This document shows positions 39,748 to 64,000 of a DNA stretch of 64,000 nucleotides, piece after piece (position 1 is the first letter of the stretch; each line of letters opens with the position of its first letter). The stretch comes from Pseudobdellovibrionaceae bacterium (GTDB lineage: Bacteria > Bdellovibrionota > Bdellovibrionia > Bdellovibrionales > Bdellovibrionaceae). The translations under genes and the position numbers were made by a program. Under the pieces are notes generated by a model. That model was not told the origin of the DNA and did not search any database. It was given only the letters and a program-made list of their open reading frames with translations. The stretch lies in NCBI GenBank assembly GCA_019637955.1, contig JAHBUS010000004.1:248001-312000 (forward strand), written 5' to 3'.

Positions 39748-39771
39748 TTTCGATACTTATCTAAGTATCGA
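39748..39771 (+). promoter_or_regulatory. ArsR-type operator copy 3 (perfect palindrome)
   Basis: TCGATACTTA (39750-39759) and TAAGTATCGA (39762-39771) are perfect 10-base arms around TC. It is the most symmetric of the three copies and lies 46 bases before the SDR start, where binding could block the promoter. The rest of the 39609-39816 gap shows no gene. Confidence 0.7.
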
Positions 39772-39816
39772 ACAAAACCCGCCGGGCAACCGGCTTTCAG
39801 AAAGTGGAGTCTTGAG

Positions 39817-56969: not shown

Positions 56970-57131
56970 TTAAACATATTTAAGAAGCCCCTCTGCTCCG
57001 GATCCGTAGAATGCAAGAGAAATCCCCAGCAGGAAGAGTCCGATCTTCACTAGCAACGCATTAAGTGCGGAACTCAGTTCTGAAATGGAAAATCCAATAA
57101 AATTGTTACGTATTCTTCTGGCTTGATTCAA
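56970..57131 (-). CDS. Small membrane ORF, probably the shifted end of the upstream gene
   Basis: From the TTG at 57131 this frame encodes 53 residues: NNFIGFSISELSSALNALLVKIGLFLLGISLAFYGSG in family-like membrane style, with one hydrophobic helix. It overlaps the 3' end of the next gene and joins it if one T is removed from the T7 run at 57130-57136 (read on the minus strand). It is either a frameshifted carboxy terminus or a separate small protein. Confidence 0.4.
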   Translation of the reverse strand: MNQARRIRNNFIGFSISELSSALNALLVKIGLFLLGISLAFYGSGAEGLLKYV

Positions 57132-57654
57132 AAAAAGTTAAAAAGCTCTCGTCGCACGACTTTCTCCAAAAAAAGTCTACTTCTGCAAAAACTGTGGGAA
57201 CAAAAGCAGTCAGAATTCCCAACATACGTAACCAAGGCGTCCTAACTATTATCTCCCAGATTATGGATATGGATATGGAGACGAACTCGAACTTAGTTAT
57301 GCCCACCCGTTGTCGTAGCTCATGGAATAATGCTAACTTTTCAAATTTTGCTGCTTCCTCGAAGTTTCCAATTTCTCTGTACAGTTTTCCGACACTCCGA
57401 TTTGCATTGTTCGACTCAACCGCAAACCCATTTTCTTTCCAATAGACTGCTACGCTATTTGCTAGCTTGATCTGATACTCGAGCTCAGATCGGTTCGTAA
57501 ATATCTTTAGACCCTTTCGGTGCTCAAAAAAAATTGAGAGACACCCGCCAACATCAATCCAAAATCGGCCGTTCCTCCTCCAGTAAATCGAATAGAGAAA
57601 ATTTTCTGAACAATCAGGGATCCAATATCTAATGGAAAATCCATCACCGGACAA
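57106..57654 (-). CDS. Hypothetical AT-rich membrane protein, possibly frameshifted
   Basis: A 182-residue frame of no recognised family, A/T-richer than the core genes. The middle has a TPR-like helix pair (ANRSVGKLYREIGNFEEAAKFEKLALFHELR), then a hydrophobic helix (MLGILTAFVPTVFAEV). The only start available is TTG at 57654, after a stop five codons upstream, so the 5' end may also be damaged. The stop comes nine codons after a T7 run; a second frame carries the likely continuation. Confidence 0.45.
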   Translation of the reverse strand: MSGDGFSIRYWIPDCSENFLYSIYWRRNGRFWIDVGGCLSIFFEHRKGLKIFTNRSELEYQIKLANSVAVYWKENGFAVESNNANRSVGKLYREIGNFEEAAKFEKLALFHELRQRVGITKFEFVSISISIIWEIIVRTPWLRMLGILTAFVPTVFAEVDFFWRKSCDESFLTFFESSQKNT

Positions 57655-57674
57655 GGCCTTGAGATCATCTTAGC

Positions 57675-57706
57675 CGCCTTCGACGGGATGAAGTCGAAGG
57701 CGTTTT
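57675..57706 (+). terminator. Hairpin with T run, terminator-like
   Basis: CGCCTTCGAC (57675-57684) and GTCGAAGGCG (57693-57702) form a perfect 10-base stem with an 8-base loop, followed by TTTT. No plus-strand gene ends directly before it, so it may be left from a lost gene or shield the island's operon from outside transcription. Confidence 0.5.
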
Positions 57707-57825
57707 ACGAAAGGGCACGGCAAAGCCGAAGTCGATCATTCAAAGAGGACTACATCGAAAAGTGGATTAGTAGGGCAGACGATAGTGAGCTGGAGAGCGT
57801 GTTCAGCCTACTTTTTCAGCCATAA
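57688..57825 (+). CDS. Short ORF, possible gene remnant
   Basis: A 45-codon frame (MKSKAFYERARQSRSRSF at the start, SELESVFSLLFQP at the end) with reasonable codon use; the open frame extends about 30 codons further upstream without a start. No ribosome site, and a terminator-like hairpin overlaps its 5' end. It could be the carboxy-terminal remnant of a gene cut by insertion of neighbouring DNA. No family recognised. Confidence 0.25.
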   Translation: MKSKAFYERARQSRSRSFKEDYIEKWISRADDSELESVFSLLFQP

Positions 57826-57848
57826 TTCCAAAATAAGTCGTTGTATTT

Positions 57849-57878
57849 TATATAATATATTAGATAATATATTATATA
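57849..57878 (+). promoter_or_regulatory. Perfect 30-bp AT palindrome at the RHH gene start
   Basis: Arms of 14 bases (TATATAATATATTA-like, 57849-57862 and 57865-57878) mirror each other around GA. Every position pairs except the central two. The last base is the A of the ATG, leaving no space for a ribosome site. Ribbon-helix-helix proteins typically bind such AT repeats, so autorepression is likely. Confidence 0.7.
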
Positions 57879-58075
57879 TGGCGATCTCAAAACCAAAGTC
57901 TTCATTCAAGACGAAGAAAAAGGATCGGATTGAATACCGAACCGTTAGCTATCGTCTGCCGGTAAAATTGCTGGATGCCCTAGATAAACACGTTAATAAT
58001 GACAACAGCGCCTGCAGCCTCGTCACACAGATGATGGAATGGGCTCTCGGCGATCTCGAAAGGCAAAAGAAATGA
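57878..58075 (+). CDS. Ribbon-helix-helix-like small protein
   Basis: A 65-residue basic protein. The second half (YRTVSYRLPVKLLDALDKHV, then a helix SLVTQMMEWALGDL) fits a ribbon-helix-helix DNA-binding fold: a strand followed by two helices. I chose the ATG at 57878, the only ATG that gives a compact domain; a longer frame starts at 57785. It overlaps the next gene's start (ATGA), so the two products are made together. Confidence 0.65.
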   Translation: MAISKPKSSFKTKKKDRIEYRTVSYRLPVKLLDALDKHVNNDNSACSLVTQMMEWALGDLERQKK

Positions 58076-58689
58076 GCAATTCGAGACCCTCTGCTGTTTG
58101 CTACGTGCGAAGTGATGAATGGCGCGATCTTCGCGAAATGCAAATCGCCGCAATTCATACATACGCTCGAGAAAATCACATAAGCCATCTTGAAACTTTT
58201 GAAGACGTGAACGACGACGGCGCCCCGTCACTTTGCACTGCCCTAACATTCGCGAAGCAACGCCGAGTAGACTTCTTCATCCTCTGGCGTCTGGATCGTG
58301 CAGGAGAGTGTGGGAGGTCCATTGAGAAAGTTGTCGAGATGGCTTCGGACCTTTGCGCCTCGGAGGTGAGATTTGTCTGCCTTCAGGATCATCTCGACTC
58401 TGAGCAGTCGGCCAAGGTCTTCCTGAGATTCCTGGTTCAAGCCGTCGCGCACGCAGCCCGTCTTATTAAAGGAGAACGCGTAAGCCATGCACTGAAAACG
58501 GCACGAGCGCTTGGAGAACCAGTTGGACGACCTTCATCCCGGGACGACGAACAAATACTTGAACTACGACGACAGGGTCACTCGCTACGCGAGATCGCCC
58601 TGCAGACTGGAGTGTCTATCTGGGCGGTCCAACGAGCCATCAAGCGATGGGCTGACGCCCAGGACGAAGGTCCAAACGCGGCACGTTAG
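58072..58689 (+). CDS. Degenerate serine recombinase family protein
   Basis: A 205-residue resolvase-like protein. The amino-terminal YVRSDEWRDLREMQ corresponds to the serine-recombinase start, but Arg and Ser are adjacent instead of one residue apart. LWRLDRAGECGRS stands where LDRLSRS is usual. Later blocks (FVCLQDHLDSEQSAKVFLRFL; LIKGERVSHALKTARALGEPVGRP) and a carboxy-terminal helix-turn-helix (HSLREIALQTGVSIWAVQRAI) are conserved. Either a divergent recombinase or a DNA-binding relic; it lies between the RHH gene and CBASS. Confidence 0.72.
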   Translation: MSNSRPSAVCYVRSDEWRDLREMQIAAIHTYARENHISHLETFEDVNDDGAPSLCTALTFAKQRRVDFFILWRLDRAGECGRSIEKVVEMASDLCASEVRFVCLQDHLDSEQSAKVFLRFLVQAVAHAARLIKGERVSHALKTARALGEPVGRPSSRDDEQILELRRQGHSLREIALQTGVSIWAVQRAIKRWADAQDEGPNAAR

Positions 58690-58795: not shown

Positions 58796-59965
58796 ATGTT
58801 CGGCGAAAGCACCACAACCCTTAGTTTTTCAACCGTTCCGAGCCACTACCGAGAGTTCAGCGACGATTTGCTCCTCGCTCAGATATGTCAGACGATTGGG
58901 CTGCCGAAGCACATGCACGACGACGCTGTCTCACGATATGAGGCTGTCGGAAAATGGCTCGCCGCAGATCCGCTTCTCCGCACGGCGAAGGTCCGGATCT
59001 ACCCGCAGGGCTCTTTGGCGATCGGAACAACCAATCGCCCCCTGAAGTTTGCCGAGTTCGACCTCGACGCCGTCGGCGAATGCGACCTCGATGTCGGGCC
59101 CCTTGAGATGCTCAACATCTACGAAGCTCGTCTCCGCGCAAACGCGACCTATGACCGAATCCTCGAACGGAAAAACCGCTGCCTCCGTCTCAATTATAAG
59201 AACAACTTCCACATCGACGTTCTCCCCGCGAAACCGAACTTCGATCTCCCGCACGGGTGCGTCCTGGTGCCCGATCGCGAACTGAAATGCTGGAAACACT
59301 CGGCGCCTAAAGGCTTTGCCCACTGGATTCAGGGGCGCTATCGGATCACGTTGGTCAAAAATTTTAGCGAGGTCCGCGATTATGTCGAACCCGCACCCGG
59401 CCATCAAGAACAGAAGGAAAAGTTCGTCCTTCAACTGGTGATCCAACTCATCAAGCGCGCCCGCGATGTCGAGTTCGAGGATCGCTGCGAACTTGCACCC
59501 GTGAGTATCGTTCTGACGACTTTGGCAGGCGAGCTTTACCATGGGGAGGTCACGGTCGCGAGCGCGGTCTCCAACTTCCTGCTTCGCCTACAGCACAAAA
59601 TTAAAATTGAAGGAATTCGCGGACCGTTAAAGGTTCACAACCCGGCAAACCAGCACGAGTTGTTAAGCGAACGTTGGGAGAAAAATCCCGAGGCATACGA
59701 AGCATTCTTGGTTTGGGTGCATGACTTCGCCGAAGTGTGGGAAACCTTCATCGAGTCGAAGGGTATTCACGCCAAGGCGAGAATTTTGGAAAGCCTCTTT
59801 GGTGATCCCGTGAAGGGCGTCGTACTCGACGAAGTGAAACGCTTTGAGGCTGCTCGAGCCACAAGCTCACTCCACGTCGCGGGTTCAGGCAGCCTCATCA
59901 TCGGATCTTCGGCGGCCGCTGGTCTGCGCCCCGTCCAAAAGAACACCTTCTTCGGTGACTTATGA
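58796..59965 (+). CDS. CBASS CD-NTase (cGAS/DncV-like nucleotidyltransferase)
   Basis: A 389-residue nucleotidyltransferase that should make a cyclic di- or trinucleotide alarm signal upon phage infection. The catalytic block is PQGSLAIGT (GS at 72-73), FDLD gives D89 and D91, and HIDVLP gives D141: a complete metal triad. The carboxy terminus is NTFFGDL. I chose the ATG at 58796, six bases after AAGGAGG; an upstream open frame has no such site. It overlaps the E2 gene (ATGA). Product and clade cannot be fixed by eye. Confidence 0.92.
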   Translation: MFGESTTTLSFSTVPSHYREFSDDLLLAQICQTIGLPKHMHDDAVSRYEAVGKWLAADPLLRTAKVRIYPQGSLAIGTTNRPLKFAEFDLDAVGECDLDVGPLEMLNIYEARLRANATYDRILERKNRCLRLNYKNNFHIDVLPAKPNFDLPHGCVLVPDRELKCWKHSAPKGFAHWIQGRYRITLVKNFSEVRDYVEPAPGHQEQKEKFVLQLVIQLIKRARDVEFEDRCELAPVSIVLTTLAGELYHGEVTVASAVSNFLLRLQHKIKIEGIRGPLKVHNPANQHELLSERWEKNPEAYEAFLVWVHDFAEVWETFIESKGIHAKARILESLFGDPVKGVVLDEVKRFEAARATSSLHVAGSGSLIIGSSAAAGLRPVQKNTFFGDL

Positions 59966-60402
59966 GCGGACCGGCACATCAACCCAGACGACGCGTTCCG
60001 GCTGCAATGCAGGCGCTGACCATGAAACAGAAGTGGCCGTCCCTCAAAATGTGCTCTCTGAAAGCGGGAAAAATCATCTGGCGGGGAAAAATTCAGCCGA
60101 CGCCGATCAGCCAAGAGTATGAGGTCGAGTTTCGTTTTCGCATGAACGAAGCTCCCGTCATCAAAGTGCTATCGCCCAAGTTGGAGTTGGCGAAAGGTGC
60201 AGAAAAGCTCCCGCACGTTTACGAAGGCGATCATCTTTGTCTGTATTACCCCCGCTTCCGGGAATGGACGAGCGCTAAACAGGTCGCCGATACGCTCGTT
60301 CCTTGGACCTGTCTCTGGCTCTTTCATTACGAGATCTGGGTTCTGACCGGAGAATGGCATGGCGGCGGGAAGCATCCGTCCGTGGGGCGCCGTAATGAAT
60401 AA
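59962..60402 (+). CDS. CBASS E2-like conjugation protein (type II-short)
   Basis: A 146-residue protein with the pattern of the prokaryotic E2-like family of short type II CBASS: YEVEFRFRMNEAPVIKVLSPKL, LCLYYPRFREW, LVPWTCLWLFHYEIW and TGEWHGGGKHPS. Cys117 in PWTCLW is the candidate thioester residue. There is no E1/JAB gene, which is what makes it 'short'. In this system E2 is known to bind and modify the CD-NTase carboxy terminus. Start and stop overlap both neighbours. Confidence 0.85.
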   Translation: MSGPAHQPRRRVPAAMQALTMKQKWPSLKMCSLKAGKIIWRGKIQPTPISQEYEVEFRFRMNEAPVIKVLSPKLELAKGAEKLPHVYEGDHLCLYYPRFREWTSAKQVADTLVPWTCLWLFHYEIWVLTGEWHGGGKHPSVGRRNE

Positions 60403-61537
60403 GAGAAAATCACGGAAGCCCATCAGCGAGAAAACTAAAATCAAGCTTTGGATGCGGGCAGGAGGACGTTGCCAATATGAGGGCTGCAACGCGCCTCTCT
60501 GGCAAGACGACGTTACTATGACCAAAATGAACAAGGCCTATCTGGCCCACATCGTCGCGGATAGTCCGCGCGGAAAACGCGGACATAAGGTGCTGTCGCG
60601 GAAGCTGGCTACCGATTTCAATAACCTCATGCTCCTCTGCGATACGCACCATCGACTTATTGACGTCGAAGCACCCGAAGCCCACTCCGTCGACCGCCTG
60701 GCCCAGATGAAAGAGATCCATGAACAAAGGATCGAGGCCCAGACGAGCGTCCATTTCGACAGAAAAACCGAGATCCTTCTTTATGGAGCCAATATCGGTG
60801 CGCAAGCCGCTCCGCTTTCCTACTCAAAAGCCGCCTTGGCCATTTCTCCTCATCGTTACCCTGTGAGTCCTGCCGGGATCTCGTTGAGCATGAAAAACAG
60901 TTCGTTCCGTGAAACCGATGATACATTTTGGGCACTAGAAAAAGAGAATCTCCAGCGCCTCTTTGACCAGCGTGTTCGCCCCCTGGTCATCGACGGCACC
61001 ATCAAGCACCTTTCGGTGTTCGGCCTGGCTCCGCAGCCCTTATTGGTTTTACTTGGCTCTCTAATCACCGACATCAACGAAGCTGATGTCTTTCAACTTC
61101 ACCGAGAACCATCGGGCTGGAATTGGCCAGACATCAAAGCAACCAAGGCTTTTACAGTTGAAGAGCCAACGGCCTTCAACAAACCACCCGCCCTCGTTCT
61201 GTCTCTGAGCGCGGACATTGCCGATCAACGCATCTCTGACGCCTTGGGTGAAGGCAACTACTCGCTGTGGAAAGTAACGACGCAAGCTCCTCACATTGAT
61301 TTTTTGAAAAGCCCTGAACAGCTTCGACATTTTCGCTCCCTCATGCGGACTCTGCTAAACAAAATAAAGATGAAACACGGCGAGGGCCACCATATCCATC
61401 TGTTCCCGGCCGCGCCGGTCGCTGTCTGCGTTGAGCTTGGACGAGTAAGGATGCCGAAAGCAGATCTGCCTTTCAGAATTTACGACCAGCTTTGGAAGGG
61501 TCAAAAGACCGGATTTTTTCCGGCCCTGGATCTATGA
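60395..61537 (+). CDS. cap5: Cap5-type HNH-SAVED CBASS effector
   Basis: A 380-residue effector. The amino-terminal HNH nuclease has zinc Cys (RCQYEGC, 26 and 31; LCDTHH at 81-86) and AHIVADSPRG with the catalytic His52. A SAVED domain follows from about 165 (HLSVFGLAPQPLLVLLGSLI; HHIHLFPAAPVAVCVELGR), which senses the cyclic nucleotide and triggers DNA degradation. The ATG at 60395 overlaps the E2 3' end by eight bases; an upstream in-frame ATG (60359) is possible. Length is normal for Cap5. Confidence 0.93.
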   Translation: MNKRKSRKPISEKTKIKLWMRAGGRCQYEGCNAPLWQDDVTMTKMNKAYLAHIVADSPRGKRGHKVLSRKLATDFNNLMLLCDTHHRLIDVEAPEAHSVDRLAQMKEIHEQRIEAQTSVHFDRKTEILLYGANIGAQAAPLSYSKAALAISPHRYPVSPAGISLSMKNSSFRETDDTFWALEKENLQRLFDQRVRPLVIDGTIKHLSVFGLAPQPLLVLLGSLITDINEADVFQLHREPSGWNWPDIKATKAFTVEEPTAFNKPPALVLSLSADIADQRISDALGEGNYSLWKVTTQAPHIDFLKSPEQLRHFRSLMRTLLNKIKMKHGEGHHIHLFPAAPVAVCVELGRVRMPKADLPFRIYDQLWKGQKTGFFPALDL

Positions 61538-62711: not shown

Positions 62712-63467
62712 CTATTGTTGTGGCCGAACGTTACCAAAAGCTGTGAGTAACTCATTGTACATCTGATCGACAACCAAATCTTTTCCACCATCGTTGACTC
62801 TATTCACAAGCTCTCCGACTGGAATTTCGCCCTGATTCAACAAATGCACATGTTGGTATGCCTGACCACGCTCCCGAGAAATAAACGCTTTGAGGTAGTC
62901 AAAATCGAGATCCGATGGGCACCATTCAGTTCCGGCTCCGCGAATAACGAATTTGACGACACTTTCCACCGCGTATCGGAAATCTTCAAATCCCGCCGTG
63001 CTGCTTCCGGGACTATAAAAAATTGGCGAAATGTCGTGCTTGCCAAAATACTCTCCGCGAACCCTCGAAATAATAAGCCGGAAATAGGATTTCAAAAACA
63101 TTCGCTCAAATGTTTCATCGTCACTATCGAAATTCATGTCGGCACCGGGACCAAACCTAAGAACGCGCCCTCGCCAGTTCGTTTCCAACCGACTTTCCAT
63201 CTTATCAATTCTGTTACTACCCCTCAGGGCTTCCAGGCTTAAGAACGGGTCGACAAACGTTTGATCAAGACTCAACCCCTTTCGCATCAGAAAGTCGCGC
63301 AAATCATCTTCGCGATCCAAACTCAGGCCTACAACCACAACAGACCGTCTTTTGCGAATTTCCTTATCGTGAAAGTTCTGAGGATCAACCATGATCTCAA
63401 AGCCTGAACTGATATTGTTGCTCTGAAGGAATTTTGTCATTTCGGCCAAAATTGTAGACCGTCTCAT
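62712..63467 (-). CDS. Hypothetical protein coupled to an AbiGi-like gene
   Basis: A 251-residue soluble protein of no recognised family. The start reads MRRSTILAEMTKFLQSNN; a middle part has VVVVGLSLDREDDLRDFL and FLSLEALRGSNRIDKMESRLE. No signal or membrane segment. It overlaps the AbiGi-like stop (TAATG), so the two form an operon facing the CBASS genes. By position it may be the toxin or partner of the AbiGi-like protein; this is inference only. Confidence 0.65.
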   Translation of the reverse strand: MRRSTILAEMTKFLQSNNISSGFEIMVDPQNFHDKEIRKRRSVVVVGLSLDREDDLRDFLMRKGLSLDQTFVDPFLSLEALRGSNRIDKMESRLETNWRGRVLRFGPGADMNFDSDDETFERMFLKSYFRLIISRVRGEYFGKHDISPIFYSPGSSTAGFEDFRYAVESVVKFVIRGAGTEWCPSDLDFDYLKAFISRERGQAYQHVHLLNQGEIPVGELVNRVNDGGKDLVVDQMYNELLTAFGNVRPQQ

Positions 63468-64000
63468 TACTGCTCCCCAAGTGAGGACTCGCCTCTCGAT
63501 CTCAGCCTATACATATCTTTTGCTGTTATTAGCCCCACTCCATGGCGAACAAGGGCTCGGAGTTTCGGAAACTTATCAGACAAGAAGGATCTTTCCGGGA
63601 CCAGAATGTATGCAAGATCATCAAGCGTGATTTTGATTTCTTCGACGGCTCGCCACTCACGTTCTTCATATATTGACTCGAATAGCTCCGAATTGTCGGT
63701 CGGATCAATTCTGCCGACTGGGCCAAGTCGAGTTGGAATTTTCACGAAGTCCGCTAACCTGACATCACGCTCAAATAACTCCCAGAAACGCTTCGTTTCC
63801 CCTTCACGCCTGAGTATCGCTTCGTCAATGTGGGGATAGTAAAGAACCGGCTTCAGCTTATCAAAAAAGGGGCTTTCATTGACCTTGCCTCTCTTGACAC
63901 CAATTCCGATATCCCCATACTTGCTCATGTGAATCGGAAGACTTCCAATCGGAATATCGCAAAAGCATAGTGCCTTAGGCTCACTAACGAAATACTCTTC
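63467..64000 (-). CDS. AbiGi-like abortive infection protein, 5'-truncated by window edge
   Basis: The frame stays open from the stop at 63467 to the right edge, giving 177 residues without a start. The edge part reads ALCFCDIPIGSLPIHMSKYG, then GIGVKRGKVN, PVLYYPH, and late EEREWRAVEEIKI: the block order of the AbiGi family, the antitoxin-like partner in the AbiG abortive-infection system. A Met at 63928 is internal. The coupled downstream gene is not AbiGii by eye. Confidence 0.6.
   Translation of the reverse strand, partial: EEYFVSEPKALCFCDIPIGSLPIHMSKYGDIGIGVKRGKVNESPFFDKLKPVLYYPHIDEAILRREGETKRFWELFERDVRLADFVKIPTRLGPVGRIDPTDNSELFESIYEEREWRAVEEIKITLDDLAYILVPERSFLSDKFPKLRALVRHGVGLITAKDMYRLRSRGESSLGEQ

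Follow-up and report, generated by a model that had tools for sequence, protein, structure and literature searches.

A ribbon-helix-helix protein and a catalytically degenerate serine recombinase homologue upstream of a CBASS operon: a possible immunity regulator built from a mobile-DNA enzyme

Among the described regulators of antiphage operons, CapH-CapP consists of an XRE protein and a peptidase. In other cases a palindrome close to the operon is the site of recognition: CapW binds palindromes over the -10 element of CBASS promoters (PMC9122588), and CapS, which together with CapK makes up a two-gene module lying ahead of immune operons, binds palindromes as well (PMC13373217). RptR is the first ORF of a phage defence island, an autorepressor acting on palindromes in its own promoter, and the paper on it puts known regulators at few of the antiphage systems (PMC12255303). 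It is far from settled how cells keep costly antiphage systems switched off, a question on which the pair of genes described below touches. As for recombinases, the PinQ paper has them often beside antiphage genes, with their function unknown (PMC12529663), and in Tn3 the resolvase bound at res autoregulates both tnpR and tnpA (PMC7157771). A review of recruited mobile-element genes counts XRE and RHH proteins among the transcription factors so acquired and, in its available part, has serine recombinases only as active enzymes (PMC8987985). The words 'recombinase' and 'resolvase' are absent from the main text of PMC9122588 and of PMC13373217, and a literature search, with many subscription papers outside its reach, found no dead serine recombinase reported to regulate CBASS or Pycsar.

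The locus lies in a 64,000-nt stretch of DNA, referred to here as the window, on contig C9 of a 3.77 Mb genome (Table 1). A preliminary description had read in it a 30-bp palindrome ending on the ATG of a ribbon-helix-helix (RHH) gene, which overlaps a resolvase-like gene, the pair standing directly upstream of CBASS, and this anatomy is confirmed. The repeat ends on the A that opens the RHH start codon, ATG (57878-57880), the RHH stop and the ATG of the second gene, here called dRec, share 4 bp (58072-58075), and the cyclase begins 106 bp past dRec, with the E2 and HNH-SAVED genes next. A CBASS operon with both cyclase and effector is predicted from family matches, the PADLOC E-values being 2.3e-88 for the cyclase, 1e-47 for the E2-like protein and 1.3e-146 for the HNH-SAVED protein (the query for the last began at codon 2, 60398). 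Promoter-like sites at the locus are no commoner than chance (1 observed, 2.5 expected), and the gene flanking the locus on the left, sought in 29 genomes with an empty-site comparison in view, turned up in a single one, namely the window's own. Further out, an open frame with a stop and no clear start of its own (57640-57825) is perhaps the 3' remnant of a lost gene, and a 182-aa frame (57106-57654, minus strand) weakly resembles a type II restriction enzyme (PADLOC E 1.9e-4). Beyond CBASS, an AbiGi-like gene (Pfam E 7.4e-5) adjoins a 251-aa unknown (62712-64000, minus strand), a possible abortive infection pair.

Table 1. Features of the locus (positions in the window)
Feature	Position	Strand	Basis or note
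Inverted repeat rich in AT (14+2+14 bp, GA as core)	57849..57878		putative operator
RHH (CopG/Arc-type) protein, 65 aa	57878..58075	+	profile matches
dRec, catalytically degenerate small serine recombinase homologue, C-terminal HTH, 205 aa	58072..58689	+	Pfam, alignment, AF2
CBASS oligonucleotide cyclase (SMODS/DncV-like)	58796..59965	+	Pfam/PADLOC
CBASS E2-like protein	59962..60402	+	PADLOC
CBASS HNH-SAVED effector	60395..61537	+	Pfam/PADLOC

As a single sequence the RHH protein has no match in Pfam, NCBIfam or PADLOC and one weak match in PHROG (E 0.094), and a search of plasmid sequences with it gave none. A profile of eight RHH proteins from beside recombinases matches 2kel (4.2e-6), CopG (9e-5) and Mnt (0.0079), such that the strand-helix-helix assignment, and with it the ribbon-helix-helix identity first proposed, is accepted; Arc is matched weakly (0.02-0.4). 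The AF2 model is of low confidence (pLDDT 63), and a PDB fold search with this weak model gave no match.

The second protein, dRec, matches PF00239 (Resolvase) with an E-value of 1.4e-13 and HTH_7 with one of 2.2e-5. Its AF2 model has a mean pLDDT of 76, rising to 91-98 in the HTH blocks and falling to 54 in the active-site insertion block; its best PDB matches by Foldseek are Sin (2r0q) and gamma-delta/Tn3 resolvase, and the top ten are all serine recombinases (TM 0.31-0.40, rmsd 12-17 Å, over the whole chain). A resolvase fold with a C-terminal HTH is, therefore, indicated by Pfam, model and fold search alike. In a type II toxin-antitoxin system an RHH antitoxin would have a toxin gene next to it; domain-family searches, including Pfam and PADLOC, gave no toxin family match for dRec.

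The active site is another matter. It was compared in an alignment of 95 rows, made up of 92 canonical recombinases and three degenerate ones, these being dRec and its homologues in two other genomes, G122 and G081; the active-site columns are presumably those of S10, R45, R68 and R71. The nucleophile column holds Ser in 92/92 canonical rows, and Asp, Ala and Gly in the window, G122 and G081, respectively. The arginine of R[PA], present in 91/92, is missing in the window, retained in G122 and replaced by Phe in G081; that of DR, present in 92/92, is Arg, Arg and Lys. The second Arg of DRxxRS (92/92) is shifted by 3 residues in the window and in G122, where the motif carries a common 3-residue insertion, and is Asn in G081, and the conserved Glu (90/92) is Ala, Arg and Ser. 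What dRec keeps is the first Arg, the DR arginine and a conserved Gln; it has neither the catalytic serine of Y-x-R-x-S nor an arginine set with the spacing of DRxxRS. The Ser region (YVRSDE) and the LDRLSRS motif, which here reads LDRAGECGRS, are thus altered as first supposed, and the alignment, proposed at that time for locating the nucleophile, puts Asp in the invariant Ser column and places no normal Ser/Arg set in the protein. Judged by its sequence, dRec would be a catalytically dead recombinase. It might be held instead that dRec is a working recombinase which moves or inverts the island by a shifted nucleophile, S14, since in the window a Ser stands one residue before the usual position and the first Arg and the conserved Gln are retained. 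This is highly improbable: in G122 the neighbouring Ser has changed sides (YIRYAS), G081 has none (YIRIGN), and dRec lacks one Arg and has another out of place.

The inverted repeat was at first called perfect, which is true of its arms (57849-57862 and 57865-57878, 14/14 complementary) but not of the 2-nt core, GA, which is asymmetric. Among inverted repeats with spacers of up to 4, no other in the window has perfect arms as long. Arms of 14 nt (spacer up to 2) arose in 0/5000 dinucleotide shuffles of 57780-57980, in 0/5000 of 57826-57900, in 2/5000 of the 54 bp at 57826-57879, which are 87% AT, and in 0/100 shuffles of the whole window. The next in length among the window's perfect inverted repeats, at 39749-39772, has 11-nt arms and a 2-nt core; a 12-bp inverted repeat at 57774-57785/57949-57960 was considered as a second operator and set aside as likely chance. 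Serine recombinase crossover sites are built from two half-sites around a 2-bp core, an architecture which the 14+2+14 palindrome resembles. The site is, however, single-copy in the window's genome with up to 3 mismatches allowed, and hence there is no partner site for recombination.

Relatives of dRec were sought in the class (143 genomes) and the phylum (368 genomes), and 110 distinct ORFs out of a larger phylum match set were examined and sorted by eye. The canonical motif is present in 98, three are degenerate yet intact, and the other nine comprise two with a variant motif that still has Ser (L105, L132), five without the N-terminal motif (truncated, at a contig end or split) and two that are not recombinases. 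Among the matches listed for the 368 genomes, the intact degenerate homologues besides the window's are G122, at 40% identity, and G081, reached via a three-row profile that includes G122. In a tree of 99 sequences the three lie on one side of a branch with an SH-aLRT of 98; the branch to G081 is very long (4.41), such that long-branch attraction may contribute to the grouping. Over the 45 HTH positions the nearest sequences to the window are G122 (28/45) and G081 (26/45), and those nearest to G081 are the window (26/45) and then one canonical protein (24/45), so close a second that the placement of G081 is less clear. Searched with dRec as a single query, cellular genome contigs in a pattern scan reaching beyond the phylum yielded no close orthologue; a two-row alignment found one match among genome contigs, the G122 locus (CANEZP010000004.1). 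Viral contigs yielded none. Phage and plasmid matches are all below 60% identity, those listed being below 40% and annotated mostly as recombinases. The relatives of the window's genome include a Bdellovibrionaceae MAG. The window's genome also has a truncated canonical recombinase (L029, at the end of contig C13), near-identical to one in a genome of another family (L027, genome G038), with tree branches of 0.034 and 0.011, which points to recent movement.

The manner in which the three degenerate proteins differ from one another bears on whether dRec has a function at all. Pairwise identity among them is 0.32, 0.18 and 0.17 in the catalytic domain and 0.62, 0.58 and 0.51 in the HTH, whereas the means for canonical pairs (n=3828) are 0.41 and 0.34, the order being reversed; an excess of HTH over catalytic identity as great as in the degenerate pairs is met in 1, 0 and 0 of the 3828. 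The degenerate members belong to different families. The stronger constraint on the HTH is the pattern expected if DNA binding were under selection and catalysis were not. The alternative, that dRec is a functionless, decaying relic of a mobile-element recombinase which came to lie next to CBASS by an accident of cargo, has in its favour the degenerate active site, the single occurrence of dRec among the genomes with this cyclase and the commonness in the phylum of modules with varied cargo (see below). It is nonetheless rather unlikely, given ORFs intact in three genomes, the HTH identity retained across families, an insertion common to two of the proteins and the position of one of them before the only PycC found.

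That PycC gene, detected in 1 of 368 genomes, is in G081, where the order is a divergent RHH gene, the dRec homologue, a 128-bp gap, PycC (E 5.5e-79) and PycTM (5e-24). This locus lacks a compact palindrome; all it offers is a pair of 10-nt arms separated by 38 nt, together with a 13-nt direct repeat. The G122 locus runs from a divergent XRE gene through a palindrome at the promoter (32 bp, 16+16 with a single mismatch, ending 19 bp ahead of the ATG) to the dRec homologue, a 100-bp gap and a two-gene operon. The operon has no defence family match and, standing behind a dead recombinase, is a candidate new immune system; at L054:7741-9646 it reads as a SAP-like protein (E 8.5e-4) followed by a 346-aa frame. 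A CBASS or Pycsar cyclase is present in the locus of 2/3 degenerate proteins vs 0/58 canonical ones (Fisher p 0.0016), the 58 being those of the 98 examined that have a downstream gene, searched with a 16-member cyclase profile and a PycC query. The comparison does not draw on a PADLOC scan of 101 downstream proteins, in which the best 25 of 35 matching families were taken and defence cargo behind canonical recombinases is undercounted. Among the 15 genomes with this CBASS cyclase family a recombinase-like gene stands upstream only in the window's, and any regulation of CBASS by dRec is therefore no general rule across the phylum. The strongest CBASS cyclase that the phylum search gave, in G208, has a canonical serine recombinase (L154:23-634) on its 3' side.

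Of 105 small serine recombinases of the phylum, 26 have an RHH gene within 400 bp, a frequency from which the pairing is taken to be ancestral; 25 are divergent, and the same strand is shared only in the window. Of 101 proteins encoded behind canonical recombinases, 31 have HTH_3 (XRE), with varied cargo next. A divergent RHH gene, an intact recombinase, XRE and variable cargo make up a recurrent module (for example L036, L038, L039, L046, L053, L130), and three RHH-recombinase-XRE loci carry DUF4268/PDC-S11 cargo. Probably, the window pair descends from a mobile module of this kind.

The autorepressor that binds the operator could also be the RHH protein by itself, on the pattern of RHH antitoxin or plasmid operons, with dRec an accessory or a passenger. 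The RHH gene begins at the palindrome, RHH proteins commonly accompany these recombinases, and the overlap of the two ORFs suggests translational coupling. Against this, G122 combines a palindrome with dRec where no RHH gene was found nearby and an XRE gene takes its place, and the HTH is the best conserved part of dRec. Moreover, palindromes of 30-32 bp also stand just before the start of canonical recombinases (L133, L034, L082), and long palindromes are uncorrelated with RHH pairing (22 paired vs 76 unpaired, Mann-Whitney p 0.88; the window's own was left out because it is upstream of RHH and more than 150 bp from the recombinase start). This absence of any tracking of RHH favours, without proving, the recombinase as binder, and the RHH protein acting alone is an unlikely, if serious, alternative. 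The L082 palindrome (upstream of 5851, minus strand, 14+3+14) has the core CAATACAACGTATTG and belongs to the genome of the Pycsar locus; the same core stands before another canonical recombinase, L125.

The preliminary description had left the pair as either a regulator module or an unusual mobility enzyme. The latter is not sustained, there being no nucleophile position common to the three degenerate proteins and active-site Arg residues being lost or displaced. Established by computation are the anatomy of the locus, the loss of catalytic residues, the HTH constraint, the uniqueness of the operon-start palindrome and the recurrence before Pycsar, and the last four argue indirectly for a regulator module. 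The favoured reading, with a probability of about 0.55, is that the RHH-dRec pair would control transcription of the CBASS operon behind it, as a local module that also regulates itself. With its strand-exchange chemistry apparently lost and its fold and HTH retained, dRec would bind DNA as a non-cutting dimer; by analogy, a resolvase that lost catalysis but retained binding would leave a repressor. The palindrome would be the operator, bound by dRec, by RHH or by both, and its occupation would presumably shut the promoter rather than activate it. CBASS, into which transcription would read through across the 106-bp gap, would be low as a result. By the same kind of analogy, the pair may keep CBASS low until infection, some infection or damage signal relieving the repression. 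Taken together, the three loci are best read as the domestication of a serine recombinase, which, partnered by an RHH (or XRE) protein, would regulate antiphage operons and its own expression with them. In other words, the pair is most likely an immunity switch built from a mobile-DNA enzyme. A more elaborate and quite improbable variant is that dRec and its crossover-like operator are bait: the active serine recombinase of an invading phage or plasmid would compete with dRec for the operator or associate with it, the repressor complex would be released, and CBASS or Pycsar would be turned on; were that so, the mobility machinery of invaders would arm immunity. If the domestication reading is true, there is a route by which the enzyme of a mobile element becomes the switch of its own immune cargo, and 'recombinase' genes beside defence operons need an active-site check before they are labelled as mobility genes.

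Set beside the small serine recombinases (Sin, gamma-delta/Tn3 resolvase, Gin-type invertases), dRec has the same domain order and fold but differs in its replaced Ser, one missing Arg, a changed Arg spacing and a single genomic site. The autoregulation of Tn3 resolvase via res is a precedent for the role proposed (PMC7157771). RptR, as far as its accessible description extends, is like the window pair a first-ORF autorepressor with palindromes; it is, however, an all-helical protein acting on short 6-bp palindromes and has no recombinase (PMC12255303). Like the window pair, CapW and CapK-CapS are encoded just upstream of an immune operon and have a promoter palindrome (PMC9122588, PMC13373217), and CapK-CapS is also a two-gene module, as is the RHH-dRec pair (PMC13373217). 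The RHH protein and dRec have no match to a WYL domain, to XRE with peptidase or to kinase with STAS-wHTH, and so do not belong with CapW, CapH-CapP or CapK-CapS: in place of the WYL, STAS or kinase components of CapW and CapK-CapS, the window has an RHH protein with a serine recombinase that is dead by its sequence. The modules of the phylum likewise set an RHH gene beside a small serine recombinase, but there the recombinases are catalytically intact, the RHH gene is divergent and XRE is often next. The novelty of the window pair is, therefore, lost catalysis combined with immune cargo, and the pairing of RHH and recombinase is not itself new.
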